From contig NZ_MRCD01000028.1 in the NCBI RefSeq assembly GCF_001904745.1, positions 8,209-69,853 on the forward strand: a DNA stretch of 61,645 nucleotides, written 5' to 3'. This DNA comes from Calothrix sp. HK-06. GTDB taxonomy: Bacteria > Cyanobacteriota > Cyanobacteriia > Cyanobacteriales > Nostocaceae. The notes under the pieces were generated by a model. It made no database searches, was not told where the DNA came from, and saw only the letters and a program-made list of their open reading frames with translations. Position numbers and translations under genes: made by a program. Within the stretch, counting starts at the first letter, position 1; each line of letters opens with the position of its first letter. This document shows, piece by piece, positions 4,687-59,360 of the stretch.

Positions 4687-4706
4687 CATCCGTTTTATCC
4701 GTTGCC
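4687..4706 (-). repeat. R1 repeat overlapping a stop codon
   Basis: The minus strand reads GGCAACGGATAAAACGGATG. The TAA inside it is the stop codon of the metallophosphoesterase, whose last residues (GNG) are encoded by the repeat. Short copy without an inverted half. Confidence 0.8.
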
Positions 4707-5567
4707 AATTTTTTCAGCATAAAGTGTAATAACGGTAATTTCAGGGCGACAATTAAATCTGACATGAAGTCCTGTCATACCTATACCTCTGTTTGTGTAT
4801 AATTTCATTCCACCTAGTTGATATAGTCCTGCGTAATATTTTTTGCCTAAACTGGGCAATACAGGTGGTTTTAAAAACGGTAAGCGTATTTGTCCAGCAT
4901 GAGAATGTCCAGATAATTGTAAATCAAACCTGTTGGTTGCAGCGCTGGTGTCGCCAAAGTCTGGTTCGTGTGCTAGTAATATTGCGGCGCCATCTAATGG
5001 TAGGTTTTGTAGCACTAAGTCTAAACGCGCTTTTTGGAACCAAACATCATCAACTCCAGCGATATACAATTTTGCTGTTCCACGTTGTAATATAGAATAG
5101 GTATTATTAAGATTGATGACACCAGTTTCTGACATTGTTTTTGCAATAGCTTTAGGATTGGCGCCATAGTCATGATTCCCTAACACGCCAAATTTACCGT
5201 CTTTTGCGGTAAGTATACCCAGTGTCTGTCGTAATTTAGGAATAAAGCGCTGTTGTTCATGTGTAACCAAGTCACCTGTAATTACTATTGAATCAGGGTT
5301 TTGCTGATTGACTAATCGAAAAATACGCTTTAAACGTGCTGAAGTCATCCATCGATTGACATGGATATCACTAATTTGTACAATTCTATATTCATTAAAT
5401 TCTTGTGGAAGGTGTGGAAGAGTCAATTGTAGCGATTTAATCTCAATCCAGTTTGGTTCTATAAAGTAAGCGTATAGTAAGGTACATATTCCTAGTATAA
5501 ATAAGCCTGACTTGATAAATCGAAATACCCTTCGGCGTGTATGACGGCATTGCTTATAGTATATCAA
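4695..5567 (-). CDS. Calcineurin-like metallophosphoesterase, membrane anchored
   Basis: 290-residue metal-dependent phosphohydrolase of the YkuE/YaeI type, some members of which act on membrane-associated phosphoesters; the substrate here is unknown. Visible metal-binding motifs in order: QISDIHVN (about residue 65), VITGDLV, GVLGNHDYG, LLAHEPDF and LSGHSHAGQ. One N-terminal hydrophobic segment (about residues 17-35) follows a basic stretch, so the catalytic domain is probably held at a membrane. The frame opens with TTG at 5567; the codon two triplets upstream is a stop and no in-frame ATG lies nearby, so TTG is the most likely start. The stop and the last three residues are formed by an R1 repeat. 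Head-to-head with der (122 bp gap). Confidence 0.88.
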   Translation of the reverse strand: MIYYKQCRHTRRRVFRFIKSGLFILGICTLLYAYFIEPNWIEIKSLQLTLPHLPQEFNEYRIVQISDIHVNRWMTSARLKRIFRLVNQQNPDSIVITGDLVTHEQQRFIPKLRQTLGILTAKDGKFGVLGNHDYGANPKAIAKTMSETGVINLNNTYSILQRGTAKLYIAGVDDVWFQKARLDLVLQNLPLDGAAILLAHEPDFGDTSAATNRFDLQLSGHSHAGQIRLPFLKPPVLPSLGKKYYAGLYQLGGMKLYTNRGIGMTGLHVRFNCRPEITVITLYAEKIGNG

Positions 5568-5689
5568 GGTTCAATCTCCAGTCTTTTAGACTTATTTTTA
5601 TATTCCCTGTACTGTTTTAAGTTTGAATCATTTAACTGTCAAATCTCGTTGCTAAAATCAATATTCCGGACGGAGTTAACAAAACTATT

Positions 5690-7057
5690 ATGAGTTTACC
5701 TGTTGTTGCTATTATCGGGCGCCCCAATGTGGGCAAGTCAACTTTTGTAAATCGTCTCGCTGGTGAACAAACTGCCATAGTTCACGATGAACCAGGTGTG
5801 ACACGTGACCGTACTTACTTGAAAGCGTTTTGGCGTGATAGAGAGTTTACAGTCGTTGATACAGGTGGTTTGATATTCAACGATGATACCGAATTTTTAC
5901 CCTTTATTCGCCAGCAAGCGATGACAGCACTTTCCGAAGCAAGTGCTGCTATTTTTCTAGTAGATGGGCAAGCAGGCCCAAATTCTTCTGATGAAGAAAT
6001 TGCCTCTTGGTTGCGAGTTCAAAAAGTTCCTGTCTTGCTTGCAGTTAATAAATGCGAATCTCCCGAACAAGGTTTAATGCAAGCTGCTGAGTTTTGGTCA
6101 CTGGGACTCGGTGAACCATATCCTATTTCTGCTATCCACGGTAGTGGTACAGGTGATTTACTCGACGAGTTAATCAACCATTTACCGATGGTGCAAGATA
6201 TACCAGAAAACGAAGAAATCAAAATTGCTATTGTCGGGCGCCCAAATGTCGGTAAATCAAGTCTATTGAACGCATTTGTTGGTGAAGAACGCGCTATCGT
6301 TAGCCCGATTTCGGGTACAACTCGCGATGCAATTGATACATTCATTGAACGTAACGGACACAAATATCGTCTTATCGATACCGCAGGAATTCGCAGAAAG
6401 AAAAGTATTGAATACGGTACAGAATTCTTTAGTATTAACCGTGCATTCAAAGCTATTCGACGTTCGGATGTAGTGTTATTAGTAATAGACGCACTGGATG
6501 GAGTCACCGACCAAGACCAAAAACTAGCGGGACGAATCGTTGACGAAGGACGCGCGTGTATTATTGTTGTAAATAAATGGGACGCAATTGAAAAAGACTC
6601 CCATACAATTTACGACTATCAGAAAGCGCTTGAAGAACGATTACATTTTACCGAGTGGGCAGACACAATTTTTGTCAGCGCTCAAACCGGACAGCGTGTT
6701 GAAAAAATCTTAGAACTAGTAGTCAGCAGCGTTGAGTCACATCGGCGCCGTGTTAGTACATCTGTAATTAACGAAGTTCTCGAAGACGCAGTACACTGGC
6801 ATTCACCCCCAGTTAGTCGTAGTGGTAAGCAAGGTAAAATCTACTATGGCACCCAAGTTACAACGGCGCCGCCAACAATTGCCTTATTCGTCAACGAGTC
6901 CAAACGTTTCAACGATAACTATCGTCGTTACATTGAACGTCAATTCCGTCAACAACTAGGTTTCAAAGGTACACCTATCCGCATATTATGGCGTAGCAAG
7001 AAAGTCCGCGACGCAGAAGGTAGCGTTATCAACACAAACCGCGCAACGCGAGTTTAA
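5690..7057 (+). CDS. der: Ribosome assembly GTPase Der (EngA)
   Basis: 455-residue essential double-GTPase for 50S subunit maturation. Two complete G domains: the first P-loop GRPNVGKS at residues 10-17 with DTGG and NKCE; the second P-loop GRPNVGKS near 182-189 with DTAG and NKWD (about 294). These are followed by the KH-like C-terminal domain (about 350-440, [18 protein letters not shown]). Length and domain order are normal for the family. The start ATG at 5690 is followed directly by the conserved [11 protein letters not shown]. The downstream gene, ecfT-like, is separated by 189 bp of layered repeats. In cyanobacteria der is often followed by a CbiQ/EcfT-like gene, as here. Confidence 0.97.
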
Positions 7058-7063
7058 TTATAG

Positions 7064-7246
7064 TTATGAGTTATGAGTTATAAATTGATGAGTAGTTAGC
7101 AACGGATTATAACGGATGTAACGGATAGTTTATTCGTAACAAACAAATCATTGTTGCTAACTCCTAACTCGTACAGACGCGATTATTAAGAGCGGGACAC
7201 TACGTGAACGCGTCTCTACTCATAACTCACAACTCCTAACTCATAA
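7064..7246 (+). repeat. Composite repeat block: STRR arms, R1 and R3 nested
   Basis: The interval between der and the EcfT-like gene is almost entirely repeat. Outer arms are heptamer-type STRRs (GAGTTAT runs at 7064-7085; CTAACTC/CATAACTC runs at 7158-7170 and 7219-7245). Inside lies an R1 copy (7099-7128) with a degenerate inverted half (7131-7157), and then an R3 copy whose two arms (7171-7182 and 7209-7218) are split by about 26 bp. The whole can fold as a hairpin. The next start codon follows the last STRR unit with no Shine-Dalgarno sequence in between. Confidence 0.75.
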
Positions 7247-8206: not shown

Positions 8207-8207
8207 G

Positions 8208-17865: not shown

Positions 17866-17896
17866 TATCCGTTACATCCATTCATCATCCGTTGCC
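17866..17896 (-). repeat. R1 repeat between divergent genes
   Basis: Minus strand reads GGCAACGGATGATG then AATGGATGTAACGGATA. This copy is an exception to the 3'-end rule: it sits between the start of the truncated helicase and the UbiD-family gene. Confidence 0.7.
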
Positions 17897-20025: not shown

Positions 20026-20184
20026 ATGGATTTAGTTCGGATTATCTGTGCTATTTTCTTGCCACCATTGGGTGTATTTTTACAAGTTGGTTTAGGTATC
20101 GATTTTTGGATTAATATACTGCTAACTATGTTTGGATATATACCCGGTATAATTCACGCAGTTTGGATTATAGCTAAGAAATAA
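20026..20184 (+). CDS. YqaE/Pmp3-family small membrane protein
   Basis: 52 residues, MDLVRIICAIFLPPLGVFLQ then VGLGIDFWINILLTMFGYIP and GIIHAVWIIAKK. The FLPPLGVFLQVG block, the second hydrophobic helix and the PGIIHA motif identify the UPF0057/Pmp3 family, two-helix proteins linked to salt and membrane-potential stress. A strong ribosome-binding site AAGGAGG lies 7-8 bp upstream. An R1 repeat follows 2 bp after the stop. Confidence 0.93.
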   Translation: MDLVRIICAIFLPPLGVFLQVGLGIDFWINILLTMFGYIPGIIHAVWIIAKK

Positions 20185-20186: not shown

Positions 20187-20236
20187 GGCAACGGATGCAA
20201 CGGATGTAACGGATGTGTTATTAATTACATCCGTTT
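20187..20236 (+). repeat. R1 repeat with inverted half
   Basis: GGCAACGGATGCAACGGATG, then TAACGGATG, followed by the inverted partner ATTACATCCGTTTTT (20224-20238). Starts 2 bp after the Pmp3 stop, in the sense orientation, and the inverted half ends where the ATP-grasp remnant (minus strand) ends. The T-rich end could act as a bidirectional terminator. Confidence 0.8.
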
Positions 20237-21571: not shown

Positions 21572-21581
21572 TAATAACGAT

Positions 21582-21609
21582 GTAGAGACGCGATTAATCG
21601 CGTCTCTAC
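21582..21609 (+). repeat. R3 perfect palindrome
   Basis: GTAGAGACGCGATT pairs perfectly with AATCGCGTCTCTAC, 28 bp in all. Its end supplies the TAG stop (21606-21608) of the minus-strand MmcB-like gene. Confidence 0.85.
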
Positions 21610-22739
21610 ATTGTGTCGGTTTCGGTTTCTGACCATCCGAGTGCTTGTTCGTATAAGGTTTCGTATACAGAACTGATGTTGTTACCAGTCAGGCGCCGTG
21701 AATAGCGAATAACTTGTATAGGATATGCTATAGAGTCACTTAGCTTTGCCGAAAAATCGATACCTAAAATGCCAATGAAGTCAAATTGTGATGCTGTGTC
21801 TCGAAGTGTATCTAATAACTCGGTGTTATCAAGTGGACTGGCAAAACAAAGATAATTACAGTATTCTGAATAATTTTCCCAATTTGCGAAGTATTCTAAA
21901 TCATCGGTGCAACTGATAATTTTGACGGCAAATAAGTCTTTTGGCTGTTTAAAATTCCACCGAACTACACCAACTAAATCTAAACGCAGTGCTTGAGATT
22001 TTATAATAGGTACTTCTTGGTGCGTTGCCCAATGTTTTGGAGCGTGTCTAATATTTGTATAGTTTTGCATCCAAGTACAATCTTCTTTAAGTGCGCGTTT
22101 GATTGTGGATGCAATTTGACGACTTGTAAAGCGACTACTTGCTGCTGGTATTGCTTTAATTTCAAGTTCTCCTTGTGTTTGCTCAATAAATGTATTAAAT
22201 GCCGTTCCTCTCCAATGCCCTAAATGTTCTATTTTCCCTTCTTGTCCTTTGTGCGGGCGCCCACGATTTGTACGTGCTTCTGTAATCGGTGGTCTATAAT
22301 CTTTTTCTAGGCGCCGACACTCTGCAACCGTTGCATCTCCAGAAAAAACTCGCTTTTTTAAAGTCTCAAATACCGGAGTTGGCGCCTGACGTTGGAGTTT
22401 TTCAAGTTTTTCTAAAGCTTCGGGTGGTATACGCGCAGCTTTGTGAACTTCCTCTAAATCGTCGTTTCCTGTTAATTTAAGGAAATACTTCGCAGCTTTG
22501 ATAAATCGCCAAAGCAATGACGGTTCACGGTCGTTGGTAACAGCTAACTGTCGCACCCAAGCCGAAAACGAAGAAAAACCACCTTGTCTATAAAGCTTTT
22601 CTTGCTGTACATTCAAAGTCAGTTTCGCCATCTCCGTCCAATCTGCCCGACTTTTAGTCAGTAATTGCGATAGACGATTTTCAATATCTGTTAATTTTGC
22701 TTCTTCTGGTTCTGTCGTTAACTTTTTGCTTGTTGCCAT
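21606..22739 (-). CDS. Unknown protein with MmcB-like nuclease fold at the C-terminus
   Basis: 377 residues. The N-terminal half is helical and charged (DIENRLSQLLTKSRADWTEM ... LEKLQRQAPTPVFETLKKR), like bacteriophage or plasmid DNA-binding helices, but no family is assigned. The C-terminal half (about 190-345) reads like the MmcB DNA-repair family: RLDLVGVVRW, LFAVKIISCTDDLEYFANWE, NYSEYCNYLCFASP, FIGILGID. In MmcB the catalytic E-x-K precedes a D-F/D-L element; here the glutamate position appears as Ala in FAVK, so catalysis is doubtful. The stop codon comes from an R3 repeat. Three-gene accessory cluster with the following divergent pair. Confidence 0.6.
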   Translation of the reverse strand: MATSKKLTTEPEEAKLTDIENRLSQLLTKSRADWTEMAKLTLNVQQEKLYRQGGFSSFSAWVRQLAVTNDREPSLLWRFIKAAKYFLKLTGNDDLEEVHKAARIPPEALEKLEKLQRQAPTPVFETLKKRVFSGDATVAECRRLEKDYRPPITEARTNRGRPHKGQEGKIEHLGHWRGTAFNTFIEQTQGELEIKAIPAASSRFTSRQIASTIKRALKEDCTWMQNYTNIRHAPKHWATHQEVPIIKSQALRLDLVGVVRWNFKQPKDLFAVKIISCTDDLEYFANWENYSEYCNYLCFASPLDNTELLDTLRDTASQFDFIGILGIDFSAKLSDSIAYPIQVIRYSRRLTGNNISSVYETLYEQALGWSETETDTM

Positions 22740-23551: not shown

Positions 23552-26017
23552 ATGCCATTTACTGCAAGCGCCATCCAATTATCTAGCATACAACAAGAAT
23601 TGTTAGAAAAAATTGAAAATCACTACCGCTCAGGTAAAAAATCATGCTTATTGTTTTTGCCTACTGGTGGTGGAAAGACTGTGGTAGCAGCAGATTTAAT
23701 CGCGCGATGGGTACAAAACGGTAAACGTATTTTGTTTTGCTGTCACCGTACCAAGCTAGTTGGGCAAACAGTAGATAAGCTACAACGATTTTATGGCATT
23801 ACCTCAAGTGTTATCCACGGTGCCAACCCTGTTAACTATAAGGCGCCTGTGCAAGTAGCAATGCTACAGACCCTTAGTAACCGTGAGTTACCACCCGATA
23901 TAAACTTAGTAATTTTCGATGAGGCACACACCACAAGTTACTGGGGCACTACATATAATATTATGCTGCACTACAGCGGTGGTGTATTTGCTCTGTCGAA
24001 ATGTAAATTTTTGGGATTAACTGGTTCACCTTGGCGCACAAAACAACAGCAAGGTTTTTGTCAATTTTATGATTCTTTAGTAGTTGGCCCATACCTCGAC
24101 GAACTAGCAGCGTTGGGTGAAGTTACACCAGTACGCCATTTTGGCTGGGGTGGTTTAATTGACTACTCAAAGTTAACGATGGGCATTGATGATTATACTG
24201 CCGAATCATTAGAATTAGTATGTGATGCCACATTTAACGAAAAAGTCGTGCTTGAATACAAACGTCATTACGGGCACTTAAATTCAGTAGTATTTTGTGG
24301 CACTGTTAAACAAGCAACAGATGTGTACACACAACTTAATAATGCTGGTTTACGTGCGGGTTTAATTCTAGGAACGACATCAAGTAAAGAGCGTGATGAC
24401 CTGTACGAACAATATAATGCGGGTATTATTAAAGCATTAGTGGGTGTTTCAGTATTTACCGAAGGGTTCGATGCGCCTATATGTAACGCCGCTGTACTGG
24501 CTTACCCTACAGCCAGCTTATCTAAACTGTACCAGATGAGCGGGCGCCCAACACGAAAGTATGCAGGTAAAACCTACGCTTATTTGCTTGACTTTTGTGA
24601 TAATTTTTCAAGACTAGGATTTGTAACTGAGCATCATCCAATCTCATTATGTCCAATTGAAAAAGAACCACAAACATTTGAGCCAAAACTAAAATCGTGC
24701 CCACAGTGTAATGCTTTAATTAATCGTTACGCGCGCGTTTGTGAATGCGGCTATATATATAGTAAGTGTAGTAACCTTGCCGCTGAACTTAAATCGAGAA
24801 GTCGTAAACCTGATTTTAGCCAATACGGTGAGCTTTTAACTCTCTCTGAAAGGCACCAAGTCGCTTACTTACGCAGGAAGTTACATAATATCATTAATAA
24901 AGGTAGTGACCCTAGCTTAGTAGTACGAATATTCTTTGAACATTACCGAAAAGTGGCGCCTGTTGAATGGTTCTTAGGTGTGGTGTTCGATGGTGATAAA
25001 TCACGGACGAAAATGCAAGTTTGGTATGATTATTTAAAAAGGGTACGACCGTTCGGTGATGAATGGTGGTATCAATATTGGATGGAAGCGGAGTTTGGAA
25101 ACAAAGCTGTAAATTTTAATAATAATAGTAATTGGTGTGAATACTTTGGGTGTGGTGCCGATGCGACGTGGGAAGAAGTATTTGAATCATATCGTATGCG
25201 AGTAGTGAGCGCGAGTGAAAATGACGTAGTAAATGCGAACGTCATGTTGACATACGCAGCTGTTGCATTAAAACAATGGGATTATGTAAATACCTTTACA
25301 GCCAACCGTGCGCGCGTATCTGGGATACAAATGAAGATGCTACAACTAGCATCAGATGTAATTGCGGCAATAAAAGAGTGTAACGTAGTAAAATTAAAAA
25401 CACTAATTAATCAAGACCTGCATCTGTGGCAAAGCGCAATTAAATATTTAACACACGAAGAGCGCATTCAACTAACGAACTTGCTTAAATCTTATAATAA
25501 TGAAGCAGAAGAAATTTTTAGCCTAAACTCGAATAGCGTACAACCAACAGATTATATTGGTAGTTGGTGTTTATTGAATGATAACAGAACATGCTTAATA
25601 ATTAAATTTGATAATAGTAGCGGTCACTTTGTTGGCATGTTAGGAGAAAAATATATCAACTTTGGATTTAATAGCATTGAGTTGATAGTAACTCTTGGTT
25701 TAAACATGAACGACGAAAAATTACCAAAAGAAACACCTCCATTATGGTCGGAAATAATAGCAAAACAGGCGCCGCCATTTTATAAATTATTAGATAAACT
25801 GTATATTTTTGCAAACCATAATCAAACTCGTTCCGAATTGGAATTATTCGCATCTAGCATAATTTACAAACGACTTGTAGATGACTTATTTAATGGACTA
25901 CTGGCGCCGATAGCATCTATATTAAAACCAGAAGAATTTGCGAACCCTCCTAGATTGCTAGTACGACAATTCCCACACAAATCCCTGGCAACGGATGAGA
26001 GCGGATGTAACGGATGA
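23552..26017 (+). CDS. DEAD/DEAH helicase with zinc finger and J-like domain
   Basis: 821 residues from ATG at 23552 (a GTG lies two codons upstream). Complete SF2 core: PTGGGKTVVAADLIARW (motif I), VIFDEAHT (II), GLTGSPWRT (III), VGVSVFTEGFDAP (V) and YQMSGRPTRKY (VI). Then a four-cysteine finger CPQCNALINRYARVCECGY (about 385-405). Around residues 527-580, WCEYFGCGADATWEEVFESY resembles the start of a DnaJ domain, but the HPD tripeptide is missing. The last 200 residues match nothing I know. The final residues LATDESGCNG and the stop are encoded by an R1 repeat. Likely DNA or RNA remodelling; a repair or defence role is possible. Confidence 0.85.
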   Translation: MPFTASAIQLSSIQQELLEKIENHYRSGKKSCLLFLPTGGGKTVVAADLIARWVQNGKRILFCCHRTKLVGQTVDKLQRFYGITSSVIHGANPVNYKAPVQVAMLQTLSNRELPPDINLVIFDEAHTTSYWGTTYNIMLHYSGGVFALSKCKFLGLTGSPWRTKQQQGFCQFYDSLVVGPYLDELAALGEVTPVRHFGWGGLIDYSKLTMGIDDYTAESLELVCDATFNEKVVLEYKRHYGHLNSVVFCGTVKQATDVYTQLNNAGLRAGLILGTTSSKERDDLYEQYNAGIIKALVGVSVFTEGFDAPICNAAVLAYPTASLSKLYQMSGRPTRKYAGKTYAYLLDFCDNFSRLGFVTEHHPISLCPIEKEPQTFEPKLKSCPQCNALINRYARVCECGYIYSKCSNLAAELKSRSRKPDFSQYGELLTLSERHQVAYLRRKLHNIINKGSDPSLVVRIFFEHYRKVAPVEWFLGVVFDGDKSRTKMQVWYDYLKRVRPFGDEWWYQYWMEAEFGNKAVNFNNNSNWCEYFGCGADATWEEVFESYRMRVVSASENDVVNANVMLTYAAVALKQWDYVNTFTANRARVSGIQMKMLQLASDVIAAIKECNVVKLKTLINQDLHLWQSAIKYLTHEERIQLTNLLKSYNNEAEEIFSLNSNSVQPTDYIGSWCLLNDNRTCLIIKFDNSSGHFVGMLGEKYINFGFNSIELIVTLGLNMNDEKLPKETPPLWSEIIAKQAPPFYKLLDKLYIFANHNQTRSELELFASSIIYKRLVDDLFNGLLAPIASILKPEEFANPPRLLVRQFPHKSLATDESGCNG
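25987..26016 (+). repeat. R1 repeat forming the helicase C-terminus
   Basis: GGCAACGGATGAGAGCGGAT then GTAACGGATG; it encodes the last nine residues and overlaps the TGA stop at 26015-26017. Sense orientation relative to the gene. Confidence 0.82.
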
Positions 26018-28575: not shown

Positions 28576-28681
28576 GATTTAAACGATTCCTGGAGGTATG
28601 CATCCAATTTAATCGATATTTACAGTAAGGTATATAATTTAGAAAGTAAAAAGCTTTATAGCCTAGATTTACAACCCGAAG

Positions 28682-28750
28682 GTAACGGATGATGAACAGA
28701 TGTAACGGATAGATAATTTACCATCCGTTACATCCGTTGTATCCGTTGCC
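28682..28750 (-). repeat. R1 repeat, palindromic form
   Basis: Two opposing copies: on the plus strand GTAACGGATGATGAACAGAT then GTAACGGAT (28682-28710), and facing it CCATCCGTTACATCCGTTG then TATCCGTTGCC (28721-28750). The minus-strand copy starts 5 bp after the stop of the Uma2-like remnant, in sense orientation. Confidence 0.82.
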
Positions 28751-28755
28751 AAATT

Positions 28756-28880
28756 TTACTTGTTTGGTTCAGGCAATTCGCCAAATTGTTCTCGATAACG
28801 AGATAGCAACGCTTCTAACTGTTCAGCATACTGATATTCTCGTTTCGCTTCGCAGTGCGAAAATAAATGGTAGGTCTATT
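28756..28880 (-). pseudogene. C-terminal remnant, possibly of an Uma2-family nuclease
   Basis: An open stretch on the minus strand ends REYQYAEQLEALLSRYREQF then GELPEPNK before a TAA at 28758-28756. This kind of charged coiled tail closes many cyanobacterial Uma2-family (DUF820) endonucleases, but the nuclease domain is missing. No start codon in context. Tentative. Confidence 0.3.
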
Positions 28881-28907
28881 GTATTTTCAAAATAGACACG
28901 GATAATG

Positions 28908-30709: not shown

Positions 30710-30740
30710 CATCCGTTACATCCGTTTATCATCCGTTGCC
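30710..30740 (-). repeat. R1 repeat forming the C-terminus of the PatD-like gene
   Basis: Minus strand reads GGCAACGGATGATAAACGGA then TGTAACGGATG. The last codons ATDDKRM and the TAA stop at 30718-30716 lie inside it. Confidence 0.82.
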
Positions 30741-31066
30741 AGCACAGCTTCACAATAACTTATAAGAGTTCCAAGACGTTCTGATATAGTACTGAGTCGA
30801 GTTTGGGTCGTTGCTTCAGTACGTGCGCTGCCTAAAAAACTGATATCAATCTCCAAAAGCCGTAATTGCTTACTAGTTTCAGTACGGTACTTGACTTCTT
30901 GAGCATTATCACTATCTAAAGGCACAATTTCTTGGGTGAAATATTGCTGTAATGAGGTAAGCTCGGTGCGAAGTTCCGCTACACTCAACCGATTGGCGCC
31001 TACCATTGAACGTAATTCCATCAGTTCCGTAAAGAGTGTATTATATTTATCCTTAGTTAGAGACAT
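30716..31066 (-). CDS. PatD-like heterocyst-frequency protein
   Basis: 116 residues, alpha-helical and coiled (MSLTKDKYNTLFTELMELRS, SVAELRTELTSLQQYFTQEI, ETSKQLRLLEIDISFLGSAR, TRLSTISERLGTLISYCEAV). Size, the opening MSL-K-KY and the KQLRLLEID core agree with the heterocyst-frequency control protein PatD, which in Nostoc interacts with FtsZ and limits heterocyst number. Assignment is from memory of the family, hence moderate confidence. The last seven residues and stop come from an R1 repeat, so the natural C-terminus has been replaced or extended. Confidence 0.5.
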   Translation of the reverse strand: MSLTKDKYNTLFTELMELRSMVGANRLSVAELRTELTSLQQYFTQEIVPLDSDNAQEVKYRTETSKQLRLLEIDISFLGSARTEATTQTRLSTISERLGTLISYCEAVLATDDKRM

Positions 31067-33627: not shown

Positions 33628-33676
33628 TGGCAACGTGGCAACTGATAAAACGGATGTAACGGATAATTTATTCGTT
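33628..33676 (+). repeat. R1 repeat abutting the spoT/relA stop
   Basis: TGGCAACG repeats twice, then TGATAAAACGGATGTAACGG ATAATTTATTCGTTA, beginning on the base after the stop codon in sense orientation. The ATTCGTTA end is a degenerate inverted half. Confidence 0.75.
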
Positions 33677-37310: not shown

Positions 37311-37385
37311 ATAAAACCTTTATTTAACAAATTTTTAATAATTTTTATTATATGTCACCGCCGTAACTTCAACAACACGATTATG

Positions 37386-37400
37386 AACGGATGTAACAAG
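37386..37400 (+). repeat. Partial R1 repeat
   Basis: GAACGGATGTAACAA, an incomplete copy in the gap between the AraC gene and the next plus-strand gene; not at a 3' end. Confidence 0.5.
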
Positions 37401-37535
37401 TAAGTGATATGACCCTTGAAACAAATTCAATATTTCTGTAATGCTAATTATTTGTGCCCATAACGTCGTTGAATACTTTGGCGCCGTTTTATGGTATGTA
37501 CAGGATAATATATAAAACAAAGCTTTATTAAAAAG

Positions 37536-38476: not shown

Positions 38477-41400
38477 ATGAAACGCATCGTTTTGATTGCT
38501 GGGTTTGAATCGTTCAACGCTGACTTATATCGTAAAGCGGCTAAAATGGCTATTTTACGTTGTCCTGAGTTAGATGTGTGTGTATATAGCGACAGGGATA
38601 TAAGTAGTAAGCGAGTTGAGGTTGAAGCAGCACTCAAGAACGCTGATGTGTTTTTTGGCAGTTTATTATTTGACTATGACCAAGTTATTTGGTTACGTGA
38701 TAGAATCGCTCAAATTCCGATTAGGCTTGTCTTTGAGTCAGCTTTGGAATTAATGGCGTTAACTAAAATAGGCGCCTTTTCTATAGGTGATAAGCCCAAG
38801 GGAATGCCCAAACCTGTAAAATTTATACTTGATAAATTCAGTAATGGACGCGAGGAGGATAAACTCGCAGGTTATATCAGCTTTTTAAAGATTGGTCCCA
38901 AACTGCTTAAATATGTTCCTGTTCAAAAAGTCCAAGACCTCCGCAATTGGCTCATTATATATGGATATTGGAACGCAGGTGGCGCCGAGAATGTGGCATC
39001 ATTATTTTGGACACTTGGCGAAAAATATCTAAATCTTAAAGTCGGAGAAATACCTCCACCCGTTGAAACTCCTAATATGGGGTTATTACATCCCAACTAC
39101 CAAGGATATTTTGAATCACCACGCGAATATTTAGAATGGTATCAAAAAATACATTCTGCTTCATCACCCATCATTGGAATTTTGCTATATCGTAAACACG
39201 TTATTACCAAACAACCTTACATTCCCCAACTAATTAAAAAATTTGAAAATGCTGGGTTGATACCACTACCTATATTTATAAACGGTGTTGAAGGACATGT
39301 CGCTGTTCGTGACTGGATGACAAGCGAGCATGAAACTATTCAGCGTTATGGAGGTAATATTGAAACACCTTCTTTATCCAAAGAATCTGTCAAAGTTGAT
39401 GCAATCGTTTCTACAATTGGTTTTCCTCTTGTAGGTGGGCCTGCTGGTTCGATGGAAGCAGGCAGACAAATTGAGGTAGCAAAAAGAATTCTTACCAGTA
39501 AAAATATTCCGTATTTTGTGGCAGCACCCTTGTTAATTCAAGATATTCATTCTTGGACTCGTCAGGGTATTGGTGGTTTACAAAGTGTGGTTTTATACGC
39601 ATTGCCGGAATTGGACGGCGCTATTGATACTGTTCCTTTGGGTGGTTTAGTAGGGGAAGATATATATTTAGTACCGGAACGTGTTAATCGATTAATTGGT
39701 CGGGTTAAAAGTTGGGTTAGTTTAAGACAAAAACCTGAAAAGGAACGTAAAATAGCTGTGATATTATATGGCTTTCCTCCTGGTTATGGTGCCACTGGGA
39801 CGGCAGCTTTGTTAAATGTGCCTCGGAGTTTGATTAAGTTTTTGGAAGCTTTGAAGGCACAAGGTTATGATGTGGGAGAATTTCCGGAAGATGGGGAAGA
39901 GTTAATTAAACGAGTTAAAGATGCTGATGAATCTAATGTAGGACAGGTTCATGTAAGAACTTTGGAGAAGTGGCTTGGTTATTTGCATTCCTCACGTATT
40001 GAGAAGCAGTGGAAGTCTTTGACGGATAGTGGAATTAAAACTTATGGCGATGAGTTTCATATTGGTGGTGTAAATTTAGGCAATGTTTGGATTGGTGTGC
40101 AACCTCCTTTGGGTATTCAAGGTGACCCGATGCGGTTGATGTTTGAACGTGATTTGACCCCTCATCCACAGTATGCTGCTTATTATAAGTGGTTACAAAA
40201 TGAGTTTCAGGCTGATGCTATAGTTCATTTTGGTATGCATGGCACTGTCGAATGGTTGCCTGGTTCTCCTTTGGGTAATACTGGTTATTCTTGGTCGGAT
40301 ATTTTATTGGGTGATTTACCTAATCTATATATATATGCTGCTAATAATCCTTCGGAGTCGATATTGGCGAAGCGTCGTGGTTATGGGACGTTGATATCGC
40401 ATAATGTTCCTCCTTATGGACGCGCGGGGTTGTATAAGGAATTGATTAATTTGCGAGATTTAATTGCAGAGTACCGTGAGGAACCAACGAAGAATTATGT
40501 TTTGAAGGAAGCTATTTGTAAGAAGATTGTTGATAGTGGGTTAGATAGTGATTGTCCATTTGAGGAAGCGCGTAAGTTGGGAATTAGTTTTAGTCCTGAG
40601 AATGTGAAGTTGTTTAGTGCGCGTGTTTTTGATGATTATTTGGTGGTGTTGTATGAGTATTTGCAGGTTTTAGAAAATAGGTTGTTTTCTTCGGGTTTAC
40701 ATGTTTTGGGTGAGGCGCCGGATGATGAGAGGATAGAGTGTTATTTGGAAGCTTATTTTGATAATTTACCTGTAGAGACGCGATTTATCGCGTCTGAACA
40801 CAGAGAGGAGGAAGGGAAAATTAGAGGGTTGTTGATGCAAACAACTGATGAGTTGACGAATCTTTTACGAGGTTTAAATGGTGAGTATATTCCGCCGGCG
40901 CCTGGTGGTGATTTGTTACGGGATGGTGCTGGGGTGTTGCCTACGGGGAGGAATATTCATGCTTTAGACCCTTATCGTATGCCTTCTCCTGCTGCTTATG
41001 AGAGGGGTCGGGAGATTGCTAAAAAGATTTTGGCGCAGCATTTACAGGATAATGGGGAGTATCCGGAGACTGTTGCTGTGATGTTATGGGGGTTGGATGC
41101 AATTAAAACTAAGGGTGAGTCGCTGGGTATATTGTTGGAGTTAGTTGGCGCCGAACCTGTGAAAGAGGGTACGGGAAGGATTGTTCGTTATGAGTTGAAG
41201 TCTTTGGAGGAAATTGGGCGCCCTCGTATTGATGTTTTAGCGAATTTATCGGGTATTTTTCGCGATAGCTTTGTCAATATTATTGAGTTGTTGGATGATT
41301 TGTTTCAACGTGCGGCAGAAGCATTGGAGCCAGAAGAAAAGAATTATATTAGAAAACACGCTTTGGCTTTGAAAGCTCAAGGTGTGGAAAATGCTTCCGC

Positions 41401-46447: not shown

Positions 46448-46546
46448 AGCTTGATATTCTAGTTTTCATCAATAAAAAGATAGTGTTTTATTATACATTG
46501 ACATCTCATTATAAGAGTGTAGGGTAGGCCGAAGCCCACCTTACTA

Positions 46547-46561
46547 TTACATCCGTTGCAA
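46547..46561 (-). repeat. R1 repeat directly after rnc
   Basis: Minus strand reads TGCAACGGATGTAA starting 2 bp after the rnc stop codon. A second inverted repeat GGGTAGGC / GCCCACC (46521-46541) follows. Confidence 0.7.
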
Positions 46562-46562
46562 A

Positions 46563-47285
46563 TTAGGCATTTTTTTGTTCTGAATCTAAAGCAAAAAAAG
46601 CTACTTTAGCGGCAGCTTGTTCGGCTGCTTTTATCGAGCGTCCTTTACCTTGACCGAGTTTTTTATCGTGCAACCAAACTTCGGCGCTAAAACGGTCTTC
46701 GTTGTGCTGCACGTTGGTAATTTCTACGACTCGATACTCAGGCAAAACCTTAAATTGTGCTTGCGTCCATTCCTGAAGTGCTGCTTTATAGTTTAGACGC
46801 GCTGGGTCTTGACGTATTTGATTGGTAAGTTCTTTAAAATGCGAGTCTAACCAAGGCCGAATTAATTCTAAATTGTTTGTACTCAAGTATAAGGCGCCGA
46901 GAACAGCTTCAAAAGAATCTGCTAAACGTGACTCTTGACCAATTTTATCGGTTGTAGCACTGCCAGCAACAAGTAAATATAACTCTAAACCATAAAAACG
47001 TGCGAGTTGAGCAAGAATACGGTCACTGACTAATACCGAACGAATCGCCGCAAAATCACCAACACGACACTCAGGATAACTCTCCCACAGTACTACGGCT
47101 GCTGCTAAACGCACTACCGCATCACCGACAAATTCTAATTGCTCATAATTAGCTGACTCTGAAGCTGTTGGATGAGTCAATGCCATATCGAGCAAATTCC
47201 ATTTTATGGGTGCATCTATGGCTAAACCTAATTTTTTAACTAAGTTTTCAAGTTGTCGTTGACGGCGTGGGTAAGCTATGGACAT
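46563..47285 (-). CDS. rnc: Ribonuclease III
   Basis: 240-residue double-strand-specific endoribonuclease that processes rRNA and regulates mRNAs. The RNase III signature YEQLEFVGDAV (47-57) and the second acidic block RLADSFEAVLGALY (120-133) supply the Mg-binding Asp/Glu residues. The C-terminal dsRNA-binding domain (about 158-235) contains DRFSAEVWLHDKKLGQGKGR SIKAAEQAAAKVAF. Complete. Upstream of rnpB, same strand, so two RNA-processing genes lie together. Confidence 0.96.
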   Translation of the reverse strand: MSIAYPRRQRQLENLVKKLGLAIDAPIKWNLLDMALTHPTASESANYEQLEFVGDAVVRLAAAVVLWESYPECRVGDFAAIRSVLVSDRILAQLARFYGLELYLLVAGSATTDKIGQESRLADSFEAVLGALYLSTNNLELIRPWLDSHFKELTNQIRQDPARLNYKAALQEWTQAQFKVLPEYRVVEITNVQHNEDRFSAEVWLHDKKLGQGKGRSIKAAEQAAAKVAFFALDSEQKNA

Positions 47286-47342
47286 CCAAAAATCCGTTTA
47301 TATGCAAAGCAAAATCTGAATCTGATATTTTAACTTTAAGAG

Positions 47343-47798
47343 AGAGTCGGACATAAGCCGGGTTCTGTTATCTAATAAGAAACACTACGTATAGCATCTC
47401 TATATTAAACGGCAGTTATCTATCTGGGACATTTGTTACCAAACGCCTCAAGCGGCTCATTTAACGGAACTGGTAAAAGACCAACCGTAGCTCCATTACC
47501 TTGCTTCCAACCGGGGTTTACCGAGCCAGCACCTCTCGATGCTGCTGGTGCGCTCTTACCGCACCTTTGCACCCTTACCAAAATAGCTATGAGTTATGAG
47601 TTATGAGTTATGAGTTATTAATTCCTAACTCCTCACTCCTAACTCCTCCCTCCTAACTTTCTTGGCGGTATCTTTCTGTGGCACTATCCTCACGCTCGCG
47701 CGCACTGGGAGTTATCCAGCAAGTCTGGTCTTTCGGAAGCCCGGACTTTCCTCAGACTCTTTATAAAAAGAATCTGCAACCGCCTCGCCTACTCTCTC
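47343..47798 (-). ncRNA. rnpB: RNase P RNA (rnpB) with STRR insert
   Basis: Minus-strand RNA of about 456 nt. The 5' end starts AGAGAGTAGGCGAGGCGGTT; the conserved GAGGAAAGTCCGGGC (P4/CR I region), the GCGCGAGCGTGAGGATAGTG segment, GCGAGAGG-like CATCGAGAGGTGCTGG, GGTAAACCCCGGTTGGAAGC and the 3' ACAGAACCCGGCTTATGTCC (CR V partner) are all visible. The variable P12 region (47585-47657) is a block of heptamer STRRs, a documented trait of heterocystous cyanobacteria. A TAATAT-like box just upstream could be its -10 element. Ends are approximate. Confidence 0.93.
47585..47657. repeat. STRR heptamer array inside rnpB
   Basis: Four GAGTTAT-type units (plus strand) facing several CTAACTC / CTCACTC units with a CTCCCTC variant; together they form the arms of a long hairpin in the P12 position of the RNA. 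Confidence 0.85.
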
Positions 47799-51855: not shown

Positions 51856-52953
51856 ATGGATATAAACGGGTTTCTTCAGTCTCTCGGAATAGCCGACCCT
51901 GGCGGTTCCGGCTGGTTGGCAGTGGTGTTTACCTTTATGCTGGCTTGGATTGTTACATGGCGATTTATTCCCACTGTTCGGAAATTTGCACTACGTGTGG
52001 GATGGGCCGACCAACCCAATGCGCGGCGCCTCAACCGAGAACCATTACCAAATGCAGGAGGTTTGGCGATATACACAGGTGTAATTGCAGCGCTGGTATT
52101 AGCAAGCCTACTGAGACCAATTGAGGTTCAAAATGTATTAATACAGGTTCTAACAATTTTGTTAGGAGGTTCAATCCTAGTCTTAATTGGTTTTATTGAT
52201 GACCAGTTTGGCTTACCATCGTCCGTGCGAATGTTAGTGCAAGTACTAACGGCACTATTACTTGTAGCTAATGGTATTAGTATTGAAATAACTATTGGCA
52301 CTCCTTTTGACTCAACCCTGTCAATTTTTGTTACCGTACTGTGGGTAGTAGGAATTACCAATGCCATTAATCTAATGGATGGTATGGATGGATTAGTTGG
52401 AGGAATTGGATTTATTACAGCGATGAGTTTACTTGCAGTGAGTGCCCAAATTCCTAACCGTGCTGCGGCAACATTAGTTTTAGCAGCTTTGGGAGGAGCA
52501 GCGCTAGGCTTTTTGCGGCATAACTTTCATCCATCGCGAATAATTATGGGGGATGCAGGCGCCTATTTTTTTGGTTATGTTTTAGCGGCAACAGCGATAT
52601 TAGGAAAACTTCAAGCTTCTACTATTTTTGCACTGGTACCTCCAGTATTATTTTTGCTATTACCTGTACTTGACACAACTCAAGTAGTAATTAGGCGCCT
52701 TCTTGCAGGTAAAAACCCTATGAACACCCCAGGTAAAGACCACCTGCACCATCGACTACTAGCATGGGGTTTATCGCAGCGTCATGCAGCTTTTACATTA
52801 TGGTCTATTGCCTTATTCTCAAACTTATTAGCAATGCACTTTCAGCGCTTAAATTTAATGCAAATAGCTGCAACTGTAAGTAGTATAATAGTATTGTTAG
52901 CCTTTACCGTATGGCAACGCATCCGAGCCGCAAAAATGCCAATCAAAAATTAA
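51856..52953 (+). CDS. WecA/MraY-family polyprenyl-phosphate glycosyl-1-phosphate transferase
   Basis: 365 residues from the ATG at 51856; a TTG five codons upstream is the alternative. Multi-pass membrane enzyme that transfers GlcNAc-1-P to undecaprenyl phosphate, starting cell-wall or O-antigen-like polymers. Motifs: NAGGLAIYTG, FIDDQFGLPSSVRM (DDQ), NAINLMDGMDGLVGG, GDAGAYFFGYVL and KDHLHHRLL (the H-L-H-H loop). Ten or eleven hydrophobic helices. Divergent from groEL; 108 bp lie between CIRCE and its start. Confidence 0.9.
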   Translation: MDINGFLQSLGIADPGGSGWLAVVFTFMLAWIVTWRFIPTVRKFALRVGWADQPNARRLNREPLPNAGGLAIYTGVIAALVLASLLRPIEVQNVLIQVLTILLGGSILVLIGFIDDQFGLPSSVRMLVQVLTALLLVANGISIEITIGTPFDSTLSIFVTVLWVVGITNAINLMDGMDGLVGGIGFITAMSLLAVSAQIPNRAAATLVLAALGGAALGFLRHNFHPSRIIMGDAGAYFFGYVLAATAILGKLQASTIFALVPPVLFLLLPVLDTTQVVIRRLLAGKNPMNTPGKDHLHHRLLAWGLSQRHAAFTLWSIALFSNLLAMHFQRLNLMQIAATVSSIIVLLAFTVWQRIRAAKMPIKN

Positions 52954-53002
52954 AAGTTAGGAGTTAGGAGTTAAAAATTCATAACTCATAACTCATAACT
53001 CT
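52954..53002. repeat. STRR inverted pair
   Basis: AGTTAGGAGTTAGGAGTTA (52957-52975) facing CATAACTCATAACTCATAAC (52980-52999). Fills the whole gap between two convergent genes, and its end encodes nothing. Likely hairpin. Confidence 0.8.
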
Positions 53003-53767
53003 TTAAGCCATCACCATTCCACCATCGACGTTAAATACTTGTCCGGTAATGTAGGCACCTGCGGGATCAGATGCTAAAAAGCGCACCATACCCGCTATTT
53101 CTTCAGGTTTACCAAAGCGTGCGAGTGGGATAAATTTGAGTATTTCTTCTGTATTGCTGAGTTTGTCGGTCATATCAGTAGCAATAAAACCAGGTGCCAC
53201 AGCATTAACTGTAATGCCACGTGGCGCCAATTCCTTTGCTACCGTTTTTGTAAAGCCAATTACACCAGCTTTGGCAGCACTATAATTTGCCTGTCCAGGA
53301 TTACCCATTTGTCCTGCTACAGAGGTAATATTCACAATCCTGCCTGAACGCTGCTTTAGCATGATTTTACTGGCTGCGCGTGTACAGTAAAACACACCTG
53401 TTAAATTAAGGTCTATCACAGCTTGCCAATCTTCAGGCTTCATTCGCAATAACAATGTGTCGCGCGTAATGCCTGCATTATTAACTAAAATATCAACGCG
53501 CCCAAATTTTTCCATAACGGCATTAAATAGCGCATCCACTTCTGATACTGAAGAAACATCAGCTTTTATCGCAATCGCAGTTCCACCAACACTAGTAATT
53601 GTATCAACTACTGCATCAGCAGCACTGTTGGACGCGGCATAGTTCACTACTACGCTTGCTCCAAACTTAGCCAATTCAATCGCACTTGCACGCCCAATAC
53701 CTCTGGAAGCACCTGTAATAATTGCAACTTGTCCACGTATAATTTGCAGGTTTTCTGGCAATTCCAT
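53003..53767 (-). CDS. fabG: 3-oxoacyl-[acyl-carrier-protein] reductase FabG
   Basis: 254-residue SDR of the classical FabG type: AIITGASRGIGRASAIELAK (NADP loop), ILVNNAGITRDTLLLRMKPE DW, and the active-site NITSVAGQMGNPGQANYSAA KAGVIGFTKT (Ser, Tyr, Lys in S...YSAAK). It ends GQVFNVDGGMVMA. Length fits. Reduces 3-oxoacyl-ACP in fatty-acid synthesis; the closing VDGGM fits FabG rather than a generic SDR. Confidence 0.93.
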   Translation of the reverse strand: MELPENLQIIRGQVAIITGASRGIGRASAIELAKFGASVVVNYAASNSAADAVVDTITSVGGTAIAIKADVSSVSEVDALFNAVMEKFGRVDILVNNAGITRDTLLLRMKPEDWQAVIDLNLTGVFYCTRAASKIMLKQRSGRIVNITSVAGQMGNPGQANYSAAKAGVIGFTKTVAKELAPRGITVNAVAPGFIATDMTDKLSNTEEILKFIPLARFGKPEEIAGMVRFLASDPAGAYITGQVFNVDGGMVMA

Positions 53768-54102: not shown

Positions 54103-54144
54103 TTGGTATTAGTTGTTCCTAATTCAAGACCCGGCTATAAGCTT

Positions 54145-54823: not shown

Positions 54824-54848
54824 GTAGGGTGGGCACTGCCCACCTTAC
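54824..54848. terminator. Hairpin at the end of the amidotransferase gene
   Basis: GTAGGGTGGGCA (54824-54835) pairs with TGCCCACCTTAC (54837-54848) with one mismatch. It lies against the stop codon of the minus-strand class II amidotransferase, between two convergent genes. Confidence 0.6.
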
Positions 54849-55624: not shown

Positions 55625-55630
55625 GGTCAT

Positions 55631-57113: not shown

Positions 57114-57131
57114 AGAGTTTTTTTAAAGTAC

Positions 57132-57163
57132 TAGAAACTGGGTTTTCGCAGAAACCCGGTTTA
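57132..57163. repeat. R2 inverted repeat
   Basis: TAGAAACTGGGTTTT / CAGAAACCCGGTTTA, compact copy with a short spacer; 18 bp after the SDR stop. Confidence 0.75.
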
Positions 57164-57270
57164 TTTGTATAAAAACAAAATAAATATCATAGATATATAG
57201 TGGTAAATTCTGGCTTTATGATTCAAAATTGTACAGGAAACCAAAAAAGGTAATATTGTACGAAACAGAG

Positions 57271-57699
57271 ATGGCACAAAAGACAAAAAAAGTTTTACAA
57301 CAATCAGGAGTAATTCCATACCGCGTTCAGAATGGAGCTACTGAAGTCTTATTGATCACAACTCGAAATCAACAAAATTGGGTTGTTCCGAAAGGAGGTG
57401 TCGTCAATGGTATGAGCGCTCCTGACTCTGCGGCAAAAGAAGCGTGGGAAGAAGCTGGAGTCATTGGGCAAGTAAACCCAAATCAACTTGGCACTTACAA
57501 ATATCAAAAAAACGGCAAAACTTATAGCGTTCAAATGTACTCATTGCCCGTTGAAGTAGAAAGCGATAAATACCCAGAAGTTGGGCAACGTGTTAGACAA
57601 TGGGTCAATGTTAACGAAGCAGTGCGGCAAGTCAAAAAATCATCACTCAAGCGTATCCTGAAAAAATTTGTCTCACAGGCGCCTAGCAACGGATTATAA
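57271..57699 (+). CDS. Nudix hydrolase, DIPP type
   Basis: 142 residues from the ATG at 57271 (MAQKTKKVLQQSGVIPYRVQ); a longer frame from 57229 is less likely. Nudix box region PKGGVVNGMSAPDSAAKEAWEEAGV at about residues 38-62, given here in parts: PKGGVVNGMS, then AAKEAWEEAGV. The catalytic EExxEE end is intact, but the usual Glu after the first glycine block (G-E-S) is Met. The layout resembles diphosphoinositol polyphosphate phosphatase-like Nudix proteins. The last residues SNGL and the stop come from an R1 repeat. Confidence 0.85.
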   Translation: MAQKTKKVLQQSGVIPYRVQNGATEVLLITTRNQQNWVVPKGGVVNGMSAPDSAAKEAWEEAGVIGQVNPNQLGTYKYQKNGKTYSVQMYSLPVEVESDKYPEVGQRVRQWVNVNEAVRQVKKSSLKRILKKFVSQAPSNGL

Positions 57700-57750
57700 A
57701 CGGATGTAACGGATAGTTGATTTTACATAATACATCCGTTGCATTCGTTT
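57686..57750 (+). repeat. R1 repeat with inverted half, at the Nudix 3' end
   Basis: AGCAACGGATTATAAACGGA then TGTAACGGATAG, with the inverted copy TACATCCGTTGCATTCGTTT at 57731-57750. The TAA stop at 57697-57699 lies in it. Confidence 0.85.
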
Positions 57751-57842
57751 GAATAATAAACTAAAAACTCTTATCGGTGGAATGATGCAAAAAGGCGCCA
57801 ATCGTCATATGCTAGTACAAGGGAACCACATAAGAAGCAGGA

Positions 57843-59309
57843 ATGTCTGATTTAATTTTATTTTGGCATCGTCGCGATTTACGCATTGCTGACAACACCG
57901 GACTTGCAGCAGCAAGGGAACGAACACGCAAAGTAGTAGGGTTATTTTGCCTTGACCCAAACATACTAGAGCGTGATGATATTGCTGCGGTAAGAGTGAG
58001 TTATTTGATAGGCAGTTTAGCTGCGCTGCAAAAACGTTATGAGTCAGTGGGTAGTCAACTGTTGATATTACACGGCAACCCAACGCAAGCTATTCCAGCA
58101 CTTGCTGATACTTTAAAAGCGCATAGCGTTTTTTGGAATTGGGATGTTGAACCATATTCACATGAACGTGATACTAAGATTATCGGTGCTTTGAAAGAAA
58201 AAGGAATAGGGTTTCTCGAAAAAAACTGGGATCAAATTCTGCATATGCCAGAAGAAATAAGTACCGGTTCCAAGGCACCGTATACTGTTTATAGTCCATT
58301 TTGGAAAAATTGGAGCAGTAAACCTAAAGCTCAACCTGTGGCAACATTGAATGATGCAGAAGGTTTGACGGAAGCAGAACTTGAAACAGCGCGTATAGCA
58401 GGAGTAAAAGAGTTACCAAGCGCGAAAGAGTTAGGATTTGTTTGGGATGGTGGCATGTCAATAGAACCAGGCGAAGTTGCCGCACTCGAACGCTTAGAAG
58501 AATTTGCTTATAATGCTATTAATAGCTACAAAGAAGACCGTAATTTCCCTAGCATTGATGGAACTTCAAGGTTAAGCGCTGCCTTAAAATTTGGAGTTAT
58601 TGGAGTGCGAACGGTATGGAAAGCTACGCTTGACGCAATGGAGAATAGTCGTAGCGAAGAAACCGAAATAAGTATTCGTACTTGGCAGCAAGAAATTGCA
58701 TGGCGTGAATTTTACCAACATGCAATGTATCATTTTCCTGAACTTGCCGAAGGCGCCTTTCGTGAAACATTCAAAAATTTTCCTTGGCAAACCAACGAAA
58801 AATATTATCAAGCATGGTGCGAAGGTAAAACAGGTTATCCAATAGTCGATGCAGCAATGCGTCAAATGAACGAATTAGGATGGATGCATAACCGTTGTCG
58901 AATGATAGTAGCAAGTTTCTTTACAAAAGACTTACTACTCGACCCACGTTTGGGTGAAAAATACTTTATGCAACGACTCATAGACGGGGACTTATCGGCA
59001 AATAACGGTGGTTGGCAGTGGAGTGCTTCGAGTGGGATGGACCCTAAACCAGTGCGAATATTCAACCCCGCTTCTCAAGCACAAAAATTCGACGCAGAAG
59101 CAGAATATATACGTGAATGGGTACCCGAACTGCGTTCTGTAGACACCGAGTATTTAGTAACTGGGAAAATTACACCCCTAGAACGCGACGCTTTAGGTTA
59201 TCCTCAACCAATCGTAGACCATAACAAGCAACAGCGAATCTTCAAAGAAATATACCAGAAACAAAAAGGCGCCATTCCAGATTTAGGAGGAGGAGGCAAC
59301 GGATTATAA
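57843..59309 (+). CDS. phrA: Deoxyribodipyrimidine photolyase (CPD photolyase, class I)
   Basis: 488 residues. N-terminal alpha/beta antenna domain (FWHRRDLRIADNTGLAAARE) and C-terminal FAD domain with WQQEIAWREFYQHAMYHFPE (Trp/Arg contacts), IVDAAMRQMNELGWMHNRCR MIVASFFTKDLL and NNGGWQWSASSGMDPKPVRI FNP. It uses blue light to split cyclobutane pyrimidine dimers. Normal length. The last four residues GNGL and the stop are encoded by an R1 repeat. Confidence 0.95.
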   Translation: MSDLILFWHRRDLRIADNTGLAAARERTRKVVGLFCLDPNILERDDIAAVRVSYLIGSLAALQKRYESVGSQLLILHGNPTQAIPALADTLKAHSVFWNWDVEPYSHERDTKIIGALKEKGIGFLEKNWDQILHMPEEISTGSKAPYTVYSPFWKNWSSKPKAQPVATLNDAEGLTEAELETARIAGVKELPSAKELGFVWDGGMSIEPGEVAALERLEEFAYNAINSYKEDRNFPSIDGTSRLSAALKFGVIGVRTVWKATLDAMENSRSEETEISIRTWQQEIAWREFYQHAMYHFPELAEGAFRETFKNFPWQTNEKYYQAWCEGKTGYPIVDAAMRQMNELGWMHNRCRMIVASFFTKDLLLDPRLGEKYFMQRLIDGDLSANNGGWQWSASSGMDPKPVRIFNPASQAQKFDAEAEYIREWVPELRSVDTEYLVTGKITPLERDALGYPQPIVDHNKQQRIFKEIYQKQKGAIPDLGGGGNGL

Positions 59310-59360
59310 ACGGATGTAACGGATAAGTAACGAATAACTCGTGCGTTACATCCGTTGCTA
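59296..59360 (+). repeat. R1 repeat shared by two convergent stop codons
   Basis: GGCAACGGATTATAAACGGA then TGTAACGGATAAG forms the photolyase end (TAA at 59307-59309). The inverted half TGCGTTACATCCGTTGCTA (59342-59360) contains the TAG stop of the AI-2E family gene (59360-59358 on the minus strand). A full palindrome bounded by two stop codons. Confidence 0.88.

Follow-up and report, generated by a model that had tools for sequence, protein, structure and literature searches.

Inverted doublets of repetitive extragenic palindromes (REPs), in which two arms lie around a spacer and have the potential to form a hairpin, are known as REPINs. Among the REP families tagged by GTAG or CGTC, which include the cyanobacterial GTAG-12, GTAG-15 and GTAG-16, most convergent REPs of two species are found no more than 20 bp from each of the two 3' ends; the GTAG termini often provide TAG stop codons, according to the account in Di Nocera et al. 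(2013; PMC3733652). In Escherichia coli, 260 of 496 REPs were placed no more than 15 nt from a stop codon in an earlier study cited in PMC12306157, where a wider set gives 446 of 4,072 (11%) and an effect on translation is reported. Miniature inverted-repeat transposable elements (MITEs) such as the cyanobacterial Nezha, in the mention it receives in PMC3733652, are short, non-coding, bounded by terminal inverted repeats and often found beside genes. We describe here a repeat of a comparable kind, R1, in a 61,645-nt stretch of Calothrix sp. HK-06 (contig NZ_MRCD01000028.1, positions 8,209 to 69,853, referred to below as the window). Its outer end is docked at the stop codons of unrelated genes, both in the window and well beyond it.

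As they are presented in PMC3733652, the GTAG and CGTC REPs resemble R1 in being small high-copy hairpins, found as singles and inverted dimers and mostly in convergent or same-direction gaps. R1 differs from them in that it carries no such tag, its arm is made of three direct heptamers and is not itself a palindrome, and no link with a REP-associated tyrosine transposase (RAYT) was seen. The inversion of its arms around a spacer is REPIN-like, although no RAYT was found flanking it and its spacers differ (2 versus 4 nt). Its docking rate is of the same order as the 260 of 496 E. coli REPs, with a different sequence. From MITEs, with Nezha compared by description only, it is set apart by the lack of a general target duplication and of a parent insertion sequence in our searches. 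R1 is therefore best filed as a tag-less, heptamer-armed variant of the stop-proximal hairpin repeats and not as a new system, with a possible role at mRNA 3' ends. It adds such a family to the repeats parked at stops, in a phylum without Rho. Neither the 18-mer GTAACGGATGTAACGGAT nor the R1 16-mer, in either orientation, was found in the open-licence papers searched; an earlier description that does not print the sequence is possible.

The R1 arm consists of three AACGGAT heptamers, often opposite an inverted second arm. Its consensus reads GGCAACGGAT-N-AACGGATGTAACGGAT, where N is mostly 2 or 4 nt, and the window holds 16 matches to GGCAACGGAT with at most one mismatch, compared with a mean of 2.3 and a maximum of 7 in shuffled sequence. 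The commonest lengths among 72 pairs from Calothrix DNA were 97-103 nt (around 101), with a second class of 60-72 nt. In the intact unit of about 101 nt the two inverted arms enclose an asymmetric centre of about 40 nt, and the spacers are unequal, 2 nt at end A and 4 nt at end B. The outer end starts GGCAAC and the element termini read TTGGCAAC/GTTGCCAA, non-coding terminal inverted repeats as in MITEs. Three intact elements folded at -40 to -48 kcal/mol (z < -9), and several copies scored as single retain a degenerate partner and still fold. Allowing up to 6 mismatches, we found 72 arms in 0.85 Mb; the reversed sequence, scanned as a control, gave none. The sample used for the genome-wide statistics comprised 1.24 of the 9.99 Mb of this draft genome, of Calothrix/Dulcicalothrix type, and contained 95 arms in 63 elements, nine of them supplied by the window; 29 of the 63 were simple inverted (+-) pairs, as in REPINs. 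Extrapolation gives about 500 R1 elements in this genome, and the 16-mer has 509 sites genome-wide with at most one mismatch, overlapping tandem sites being counted separately. We also observed another repeat, AGTGGTTCRTGTCATAAGTTTTGG...GTAG/GTTG, ahead of 17 R1 ends (L123, L119, L102, L096, L091 and other named loci), where R1 thus either sits inside a larger palindromic element or forms part of one; REP dimers nested in other palindromes are described in PMC3733652.

To quantify docking, the distance from the outer ends of every element to the nearest gene was measured, and an end between -35 and +10 nt from it was considered near. Elements less than 600 nt from the end of a sequence piece (7 of 63 in this genome) were dropped. 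For pairs, 23 of the 35 stop-side ends were near but only 1 of the 23 start-side ends. Single arms behaved in the same way and with a clear orientation, being near at 11 of 19 sense stops, 1 of 10 antisense stops, none of 17 sense starts and 1 of 8 antisense starts. A sample of 67 loci from named relatives, picked for an exact match to the arm pattern regardless of where it lay, gave 31 of 46 stop-side versus 2 of 20 start-side ends for pairs, and 18 of 26, 0 of 21, 0 of 18 and 1 of 13 for the same four classes of single arms. Fisher tests on the pooled data gave p values between 2e-8 and 3e-11. Random placement in intergenic DNA would leave 3.6% of ends near a stop (binomial p < 1e-11 for R1), compared with 54-69% docked; the first-pass annotation of the window had considered the bias too strong for random insertion, and the enrichment and orientation that it saw there hold across the 1.24 Mb.

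The distances of R1 ends peak at about -16 to +8 from the stop. In this genome 22 of the 34 near ends, roughly two thirds, overlap the gene, so that the arm carries the whole or part of the stop codon. Like REPs, R1 lies past coding regions, near stops or supplying them, and only 1 of 56 elements of this short, high-copy hairpin repeat was inside a gene. Divergent gaps contained 8 of the 56 elements while making up 28% of the intergenic bases, and convergent gaps 16 of 56 with 18% of the bases. Of 72 elements at the named loci, 6 were in divergent gaps (29% of bases) and 27 in convergent ones (16%). Docking was found in 78 of 121 arms with 0-1 mismatches to the consensus, 20 of 31 with 2-3 and 17 of 20 with 4-6. 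A purine-rich, AAAATT-like stretch precedes the outer ends both close to and far from stops. We rejected it as the cause of docking, since its excess at stops over other places is only about 1.3-fold and its profile across 1578 gene ends free of R1 was almost flat.

R1 belongs to a group of filamentous cyanobacteria, and its named carriers are Calothrix strains, Dulcicalothrix strains and Scytonematopsis contorta. The 16-mer was present in all six other genomes of the same genus that were searched (49 to 470 sites) and in 5 of 53 genomes outside the genus (1 to 151 sites); a longer R1 pattern was detected in 5 of the 290 further genomes sampled from the order. Where a sense gene was called upstream of the arm, as for 12 arms in two other genera of the family, the arm began between -35 and +10 nt from the stop of that gene in 8. 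For this check 17 loci were fetched of 33 sites, the arm start was taken as 14 nt before the core, and five arms were without a called gene; the gene caller was untuned for distant lineages, and few genes were called in G036. The last genome, which belongs to another family, shows the repeat expanded as tandem GTAACGGAT units behind a constant GTTCGGCAACGGATT lead (loci L251, L259 and L272).

Several sequenced carrier strains, up to 97% alike over aligned stretches, are dissimilar in R1 at genes that they share. They are natural pairs, suited to asking whether a gene-end hairpin alters transcript ends, stability or protein C-termini. Synteny was mapped with five relatives over the window, and with three of them also over 260 kb of contig C1. 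For 85 elements there were 192 comparisons with both flanks, genome pairs being counted from either side, and R1 was present in 145 and absent in 47 by our own criteria. Of 132 gene ends represented in three or more genomes, 20 had R1 in some genome and five in all. Where the native stop was known from an ortholog without R1, as the earlier annotation had suggested comparing, the start of R1 fell between -9 and +16 nt from it for 12 of the 13 ends, the remaining one being at +40. Excluded from this count are site 13, affected by a frame error, and site 3 (-25), which has a degenerate R1 as its reference allele. Some alleles scored as lacking R1 hold a degenerate or remnant copy (G005 at site 3, G000 at site 6), and at site 2 G002 has R1 further downstream. 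In one convergent gap R1 was present in G000, G004 and G005 and had a GTAGGGTGGGC palindrome as its counterpart in G002, and in a second the counterpart was short tandem repeats, the coding ends being conserved.

From the copies, their structural potential, the docking, its orientation and the differences between strains, we propose, with a probability of roughly 60%, that R1 belongs to the non-coding interspersed repeats of REP/REPIN or MITE type that form hairpins, and is inserted or retained at gene ends, where it perhaps acts as an mRNA 3' hairpin. An enzyme or a copying process would have spread it, by transposition or copying, and its outer end (GGCAAC...) would be put at stop codons or retained there. 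A transcript from the gene upstream would then end in, or directly enter, a hairpin, and one element could serve both genes of a convergent pair. Whether this brings a benefit we infer only weakly; it might be protection from 3'-5' decay or an effect on translation termination. The first-pass annotation had offered two roles, an RNA 3'-end element (terminator or stability signal) or a mobile unit targeted to gene ends. A stability hairpin at the 3' end is possible. The mobile unit fits the patchy distribution, the docking of near-consensus arms and the differences between strains.

Several results weigh against this proposal. No transposase linked to R1 was found, and among the 47 comparisons without R1 there was no clean empty site, the single junction that passed being a shortened R1. 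No general target duplication was detected in 71 pairs at 49 offsets, with L108 as the exception; the best-scoring offset gave 4 matching trimers where 1.75 were expected, and words of 5, 6 and 8 matched once each. Compensatory changes between arms were not detected (7 double changes versus 12.4 expected in 71 pairs, a comparison of limited power). Nor did the arms evolve more slowly than the flanking intergenic DNA, the ratio being 0.93 (95% CI 0.54-1.50, again of limited power) in 47 comparisons at 25 loci with the ascertainment bias removed. An apparent conservation of the arms, 6.8% divergence versus 12.8% in intergenic DNA, was rejected because the arms had been chosen by their match to the consensus, and the corrected comparison shows no difference. 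When only the 80 nt past the stop were considered, a stem of at least 10 bp occurred at 30% of 20 R1 ends and 32% of 112 ends that never have R1, and the mean fold energies were -18.7 and -16.9 kcal/mol. With no covariation, no constraint and little extra structure in these 80 nt, a need for R1 is nowhere demonstrated.

The strongest rival dispenses with the benefit. Here R1 would be a targeted mobile element whose insertion machinery prefers gene ends, where it does little harm and so persists, a possibility that we consider real but clearly less probable than the proposal above. Docking already present in near-consensus arms, the start of R1 so close to the native stop at 12 of 13 ends and the absence of detectable constraint or covariation speak for it, while the AAAATT-like flank is too weak to explain docking, no cognate enzyme was found and target duplication is not general. 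Regarding the enzyme, this genome has two matches to PF01797 with weak E-values, and R1 arms occurred at 2 of 30 fetched PF01797 loci from 17 genomes and not at the one from this genome; these loci do not prove RAYT as the mover of R1. Locus L193 of G036 (1297-2448) carries a RAYT-like Y1 transposase gene (188 aa, our own label) beside an open reading frame (ORF) of repeated ETGFLPKS...RRNPVSW, made of GAAACCGGGTTTC units; the two may be a RAYT and the repeat it acts on, one other than R1. In 2.95 Mb there were 17 inverted arm pairs 130-3000 nt apart, a few of whose inserts share 35-193 nt, and no common long insert indicating a parent insertion sequence. GTAG did not mark the foot of the hairpin (13 of 100 ends far from stops and 11 of 115 docked ends had it somewhere in the preceding 24 nt), and CGTC is absent from the R1 end consensus, its occurrences not being counted. 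As there is no GTAG or CGTC tag, no identified transposase and no general target duplication, membership in the REPs or in the MITEs is not established. The full-length element at L108 (approximately 2931-3040) has a 12-nt direct repeat, AATTGGCTTTTT, at both ends, a possible target duplication and the sole case noticed.

That R1 is a true transcription terminator, selected since cyanobacteria lack Rho, appears unlikely. Termination in such a Rho-less cyanobacterium is largely unexplained according to PMC13289151, hairpins are found at gene ends, the enrichment of R1 in convergent gaps and its depletion in divergent ones would fit, and the copy at 20187 forms a stem leading into a T6 stretch. 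We compared equal stretches (-35 to +130) at 731 gene ends, 31 of them with docked R1. A stem of at least 10 bp was found at 22 of the 31 and at 264 of the other 700, but it was followed by a U-tract (at least 4 T in the 8 nt after the stem) in only 4 of the 22 docked R1 hairpins, few cases, versus 91 of 256 other gene-end hairpins. Without the last 35 coding nt the numbers were 20 of 31 versus 222 of 700 for stems and 5 of 20 versus 75 of 214 for U-tracts. A first count (stems at 71% of 31 versus 32% of 700, U-tracts at 18% of 22 versus 35% of 214) was discarded, the R1 stretch having been longer than the others. With the U-tract in this minority of copies, a role as canonical intrinsic terminator is unlikely, and the terminator half of the earlier suggestion is unsupported for most copies. 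The arms, besides, neither covary nor evolve slowly.

It is about equally doubtful that the gene 3' ends themselves are exchange sites, at which machinery sensing the termination of transcription or translation would swap the spacer from the last codons to the next gene. R1, the GTAGGGTGGGC palindrome, repeats of the short tandemly repeated repetitive (STRR) type and others would then replace each other at the same stop between close strains. Separately, we considered hairpin replacement as a trait particular to R1 sites. In all 10 independent gaps with an ortholog lacking R1 (sites 3 and 13 excluded), another repeat or hairpin was seen by eye in at least one such ortholog. Replacement is not an R1-specific trait, however: a stem of at least 10 bp was present in 33% of 15 cases versus 32% of 112 never-R1 ends, and many similar places existed for 31% of 32 alleles versus 34% of 427 at never-R1 ends. 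With these equal rates, hairpin replacement is a property of gene ends in general in these genomes. Such stems in 80 nt, found at 32% of those 112 ends, were rarer before starts (11% of 150 regions) and within genes (2% of 150 places).

Docking at stops is not unique to R1 either. By the same measure in the same 1.24 Mb, the stop-side ends that were near numbered 13 of 26 for the AGAAACC-GGTTTCT repeat, 6 of 25 for GTAGAGACG, 4 of 16 for GTAGGGTGGGC (12 of 16 within +30), 4 of 10 for GTGCGT, 3 of 9 for STRR and none of 3 for ACTGCAAACGGG, while the common hexamer GGCGCC was near in 17 of 275 cases compared with 34 of 63 for R1. Since other local hairpin families dock, as do published REPs, the uniqueness of R1 that had been implied is unsupported.

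A random insertion followed by purging, in which copies are lost from genes and promoters and the survivors appear docked, is disfavoured and improbable. The near absence of copies inside genes and the depletion of divergent gaps agree with it, but copies tens of nt past a stop should do no harm, yet the ends peak at the stop itself, and random placement gives only 3.6% docking. Least probable of all is a signal at the DNA level, such as a site bound by a protein or by gyrase whose location would be confined to gene ends; this reading does not predict the orientation toward the stop.

In the window, where genes were called with our own gene caller and not taken from a published annotation (short genes such as 20026-20184 are missed), 8 of the 10 copies that the first-pass annotation had called docked lie at recognisable gene ends. 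The repeat supplies or shares the stop in five of them. An R1 arm (GGCAACGGATAAAACGGATG...) at 4687-4706 (-) supplies the TAA of a calcineurin-like phosphoesterase gene (4695-5348 (-), PF00149), whose ortholog without R1 in relative G006 ends in CTTCACACT-TAG. The arm at 25987-26015 (+) encodes the last codons of a DEAD/ResIII helicase gene (23552-26017, Pfam) and runs into its TGA. A third arm, at 57685-57714 (+), supplies the TAA of a NUDIX gene (57271-57699, Pfam) and is paired with a degenerate partner after it. Finally, the R1 pair at 59295-59359 lies between a photolyase gene (57843-59309 (+)) and an AI-2E transporter gene (59358-60515 (-), both Pfam), a convergent couple; one stop is supplied and the other shared, and R1 is present at both stops in five of five aligned genomes. 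For the 'PatD-like' gene named among those ended by the repeat we found no match, the gene at 59360 being the AI-2E transporter.

At three other genes R1 follows the stop by 1-2 nt or directly. The arm at 20187-20214 (+) begins 2 nt past the TAA of a 52-aa ORF (20026-20184), and its inner part pairs with ACATCCGTT, leading into a run of six T of which four lie outside the stem. The copy at 33629-33664 (+) is 1 nt past the TAG of relA/spoT (31381-33627, Pfam), a gene end at which R1 is likewise present in five relatives, G002-G006. The one listed at 46561 is indeed at the RNase III stop (gene 46563-47285 (-)), as a remnant arm only, TTTGCAACGGATGTAATAG at 46544-46562 (-), followed by a GTAAGGTGGGC palindrome. 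The copy described as 42 bp after der at 7099 is also there, with its position corrected to 7098-7126 (+), 40 nt past the der (EngA) stop, and a GTTGCTAAC remnant of the other end lies further downstream.

The two remaining copies abut ORF ends as described, but the ORFs are unverified. One is an inverted arm pair at 28681-28750, a hairpin of -36.3 kcal/mol, 5 nt ahead of which ends an unverified open tail that was not called as a gene. The surrounding gap (28623-28908) is highly variable, about 290 nt here and some 2.8-3.0 kb in G002 and G004, with R1 at ORF tails. The other, an arm at 30711-30740 (-), provides the stop of an unverified 116-aa ORF (30716-31066 (-)) with no Pfam match. The exceptions named near 17866 and 37386 are real exceptions: the arm at 17867-17896 (-) and a degenerate copy at 37379-37413 (+) both lie between divergent genes.

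An Rfam search of the window at the gathering score left R1 unmatched and returned only the RNase P RNA and a tRNA. The former (class A, 47339-47795 (-)) is just upstream of the RNase III gene. Other palindromes of the window, GTAGAGACGCG...CGCGTCTCTAC and AGAAACC-GGTTTCT, occur near stops at 21581-21610, 40771-40800, 33734 and 45410; in the 1.24-Mb sample, 6 of 25 and 13 of 26 of their respective stop-side ends were near. Heptameric GAGTTAG/GAGTTAT tandem repeats are found in inverted orientation 5.3 kb apart, at 47583-47644 and 52946-53004, and similar repeats occupy the place of R1 at one gene end in G002.

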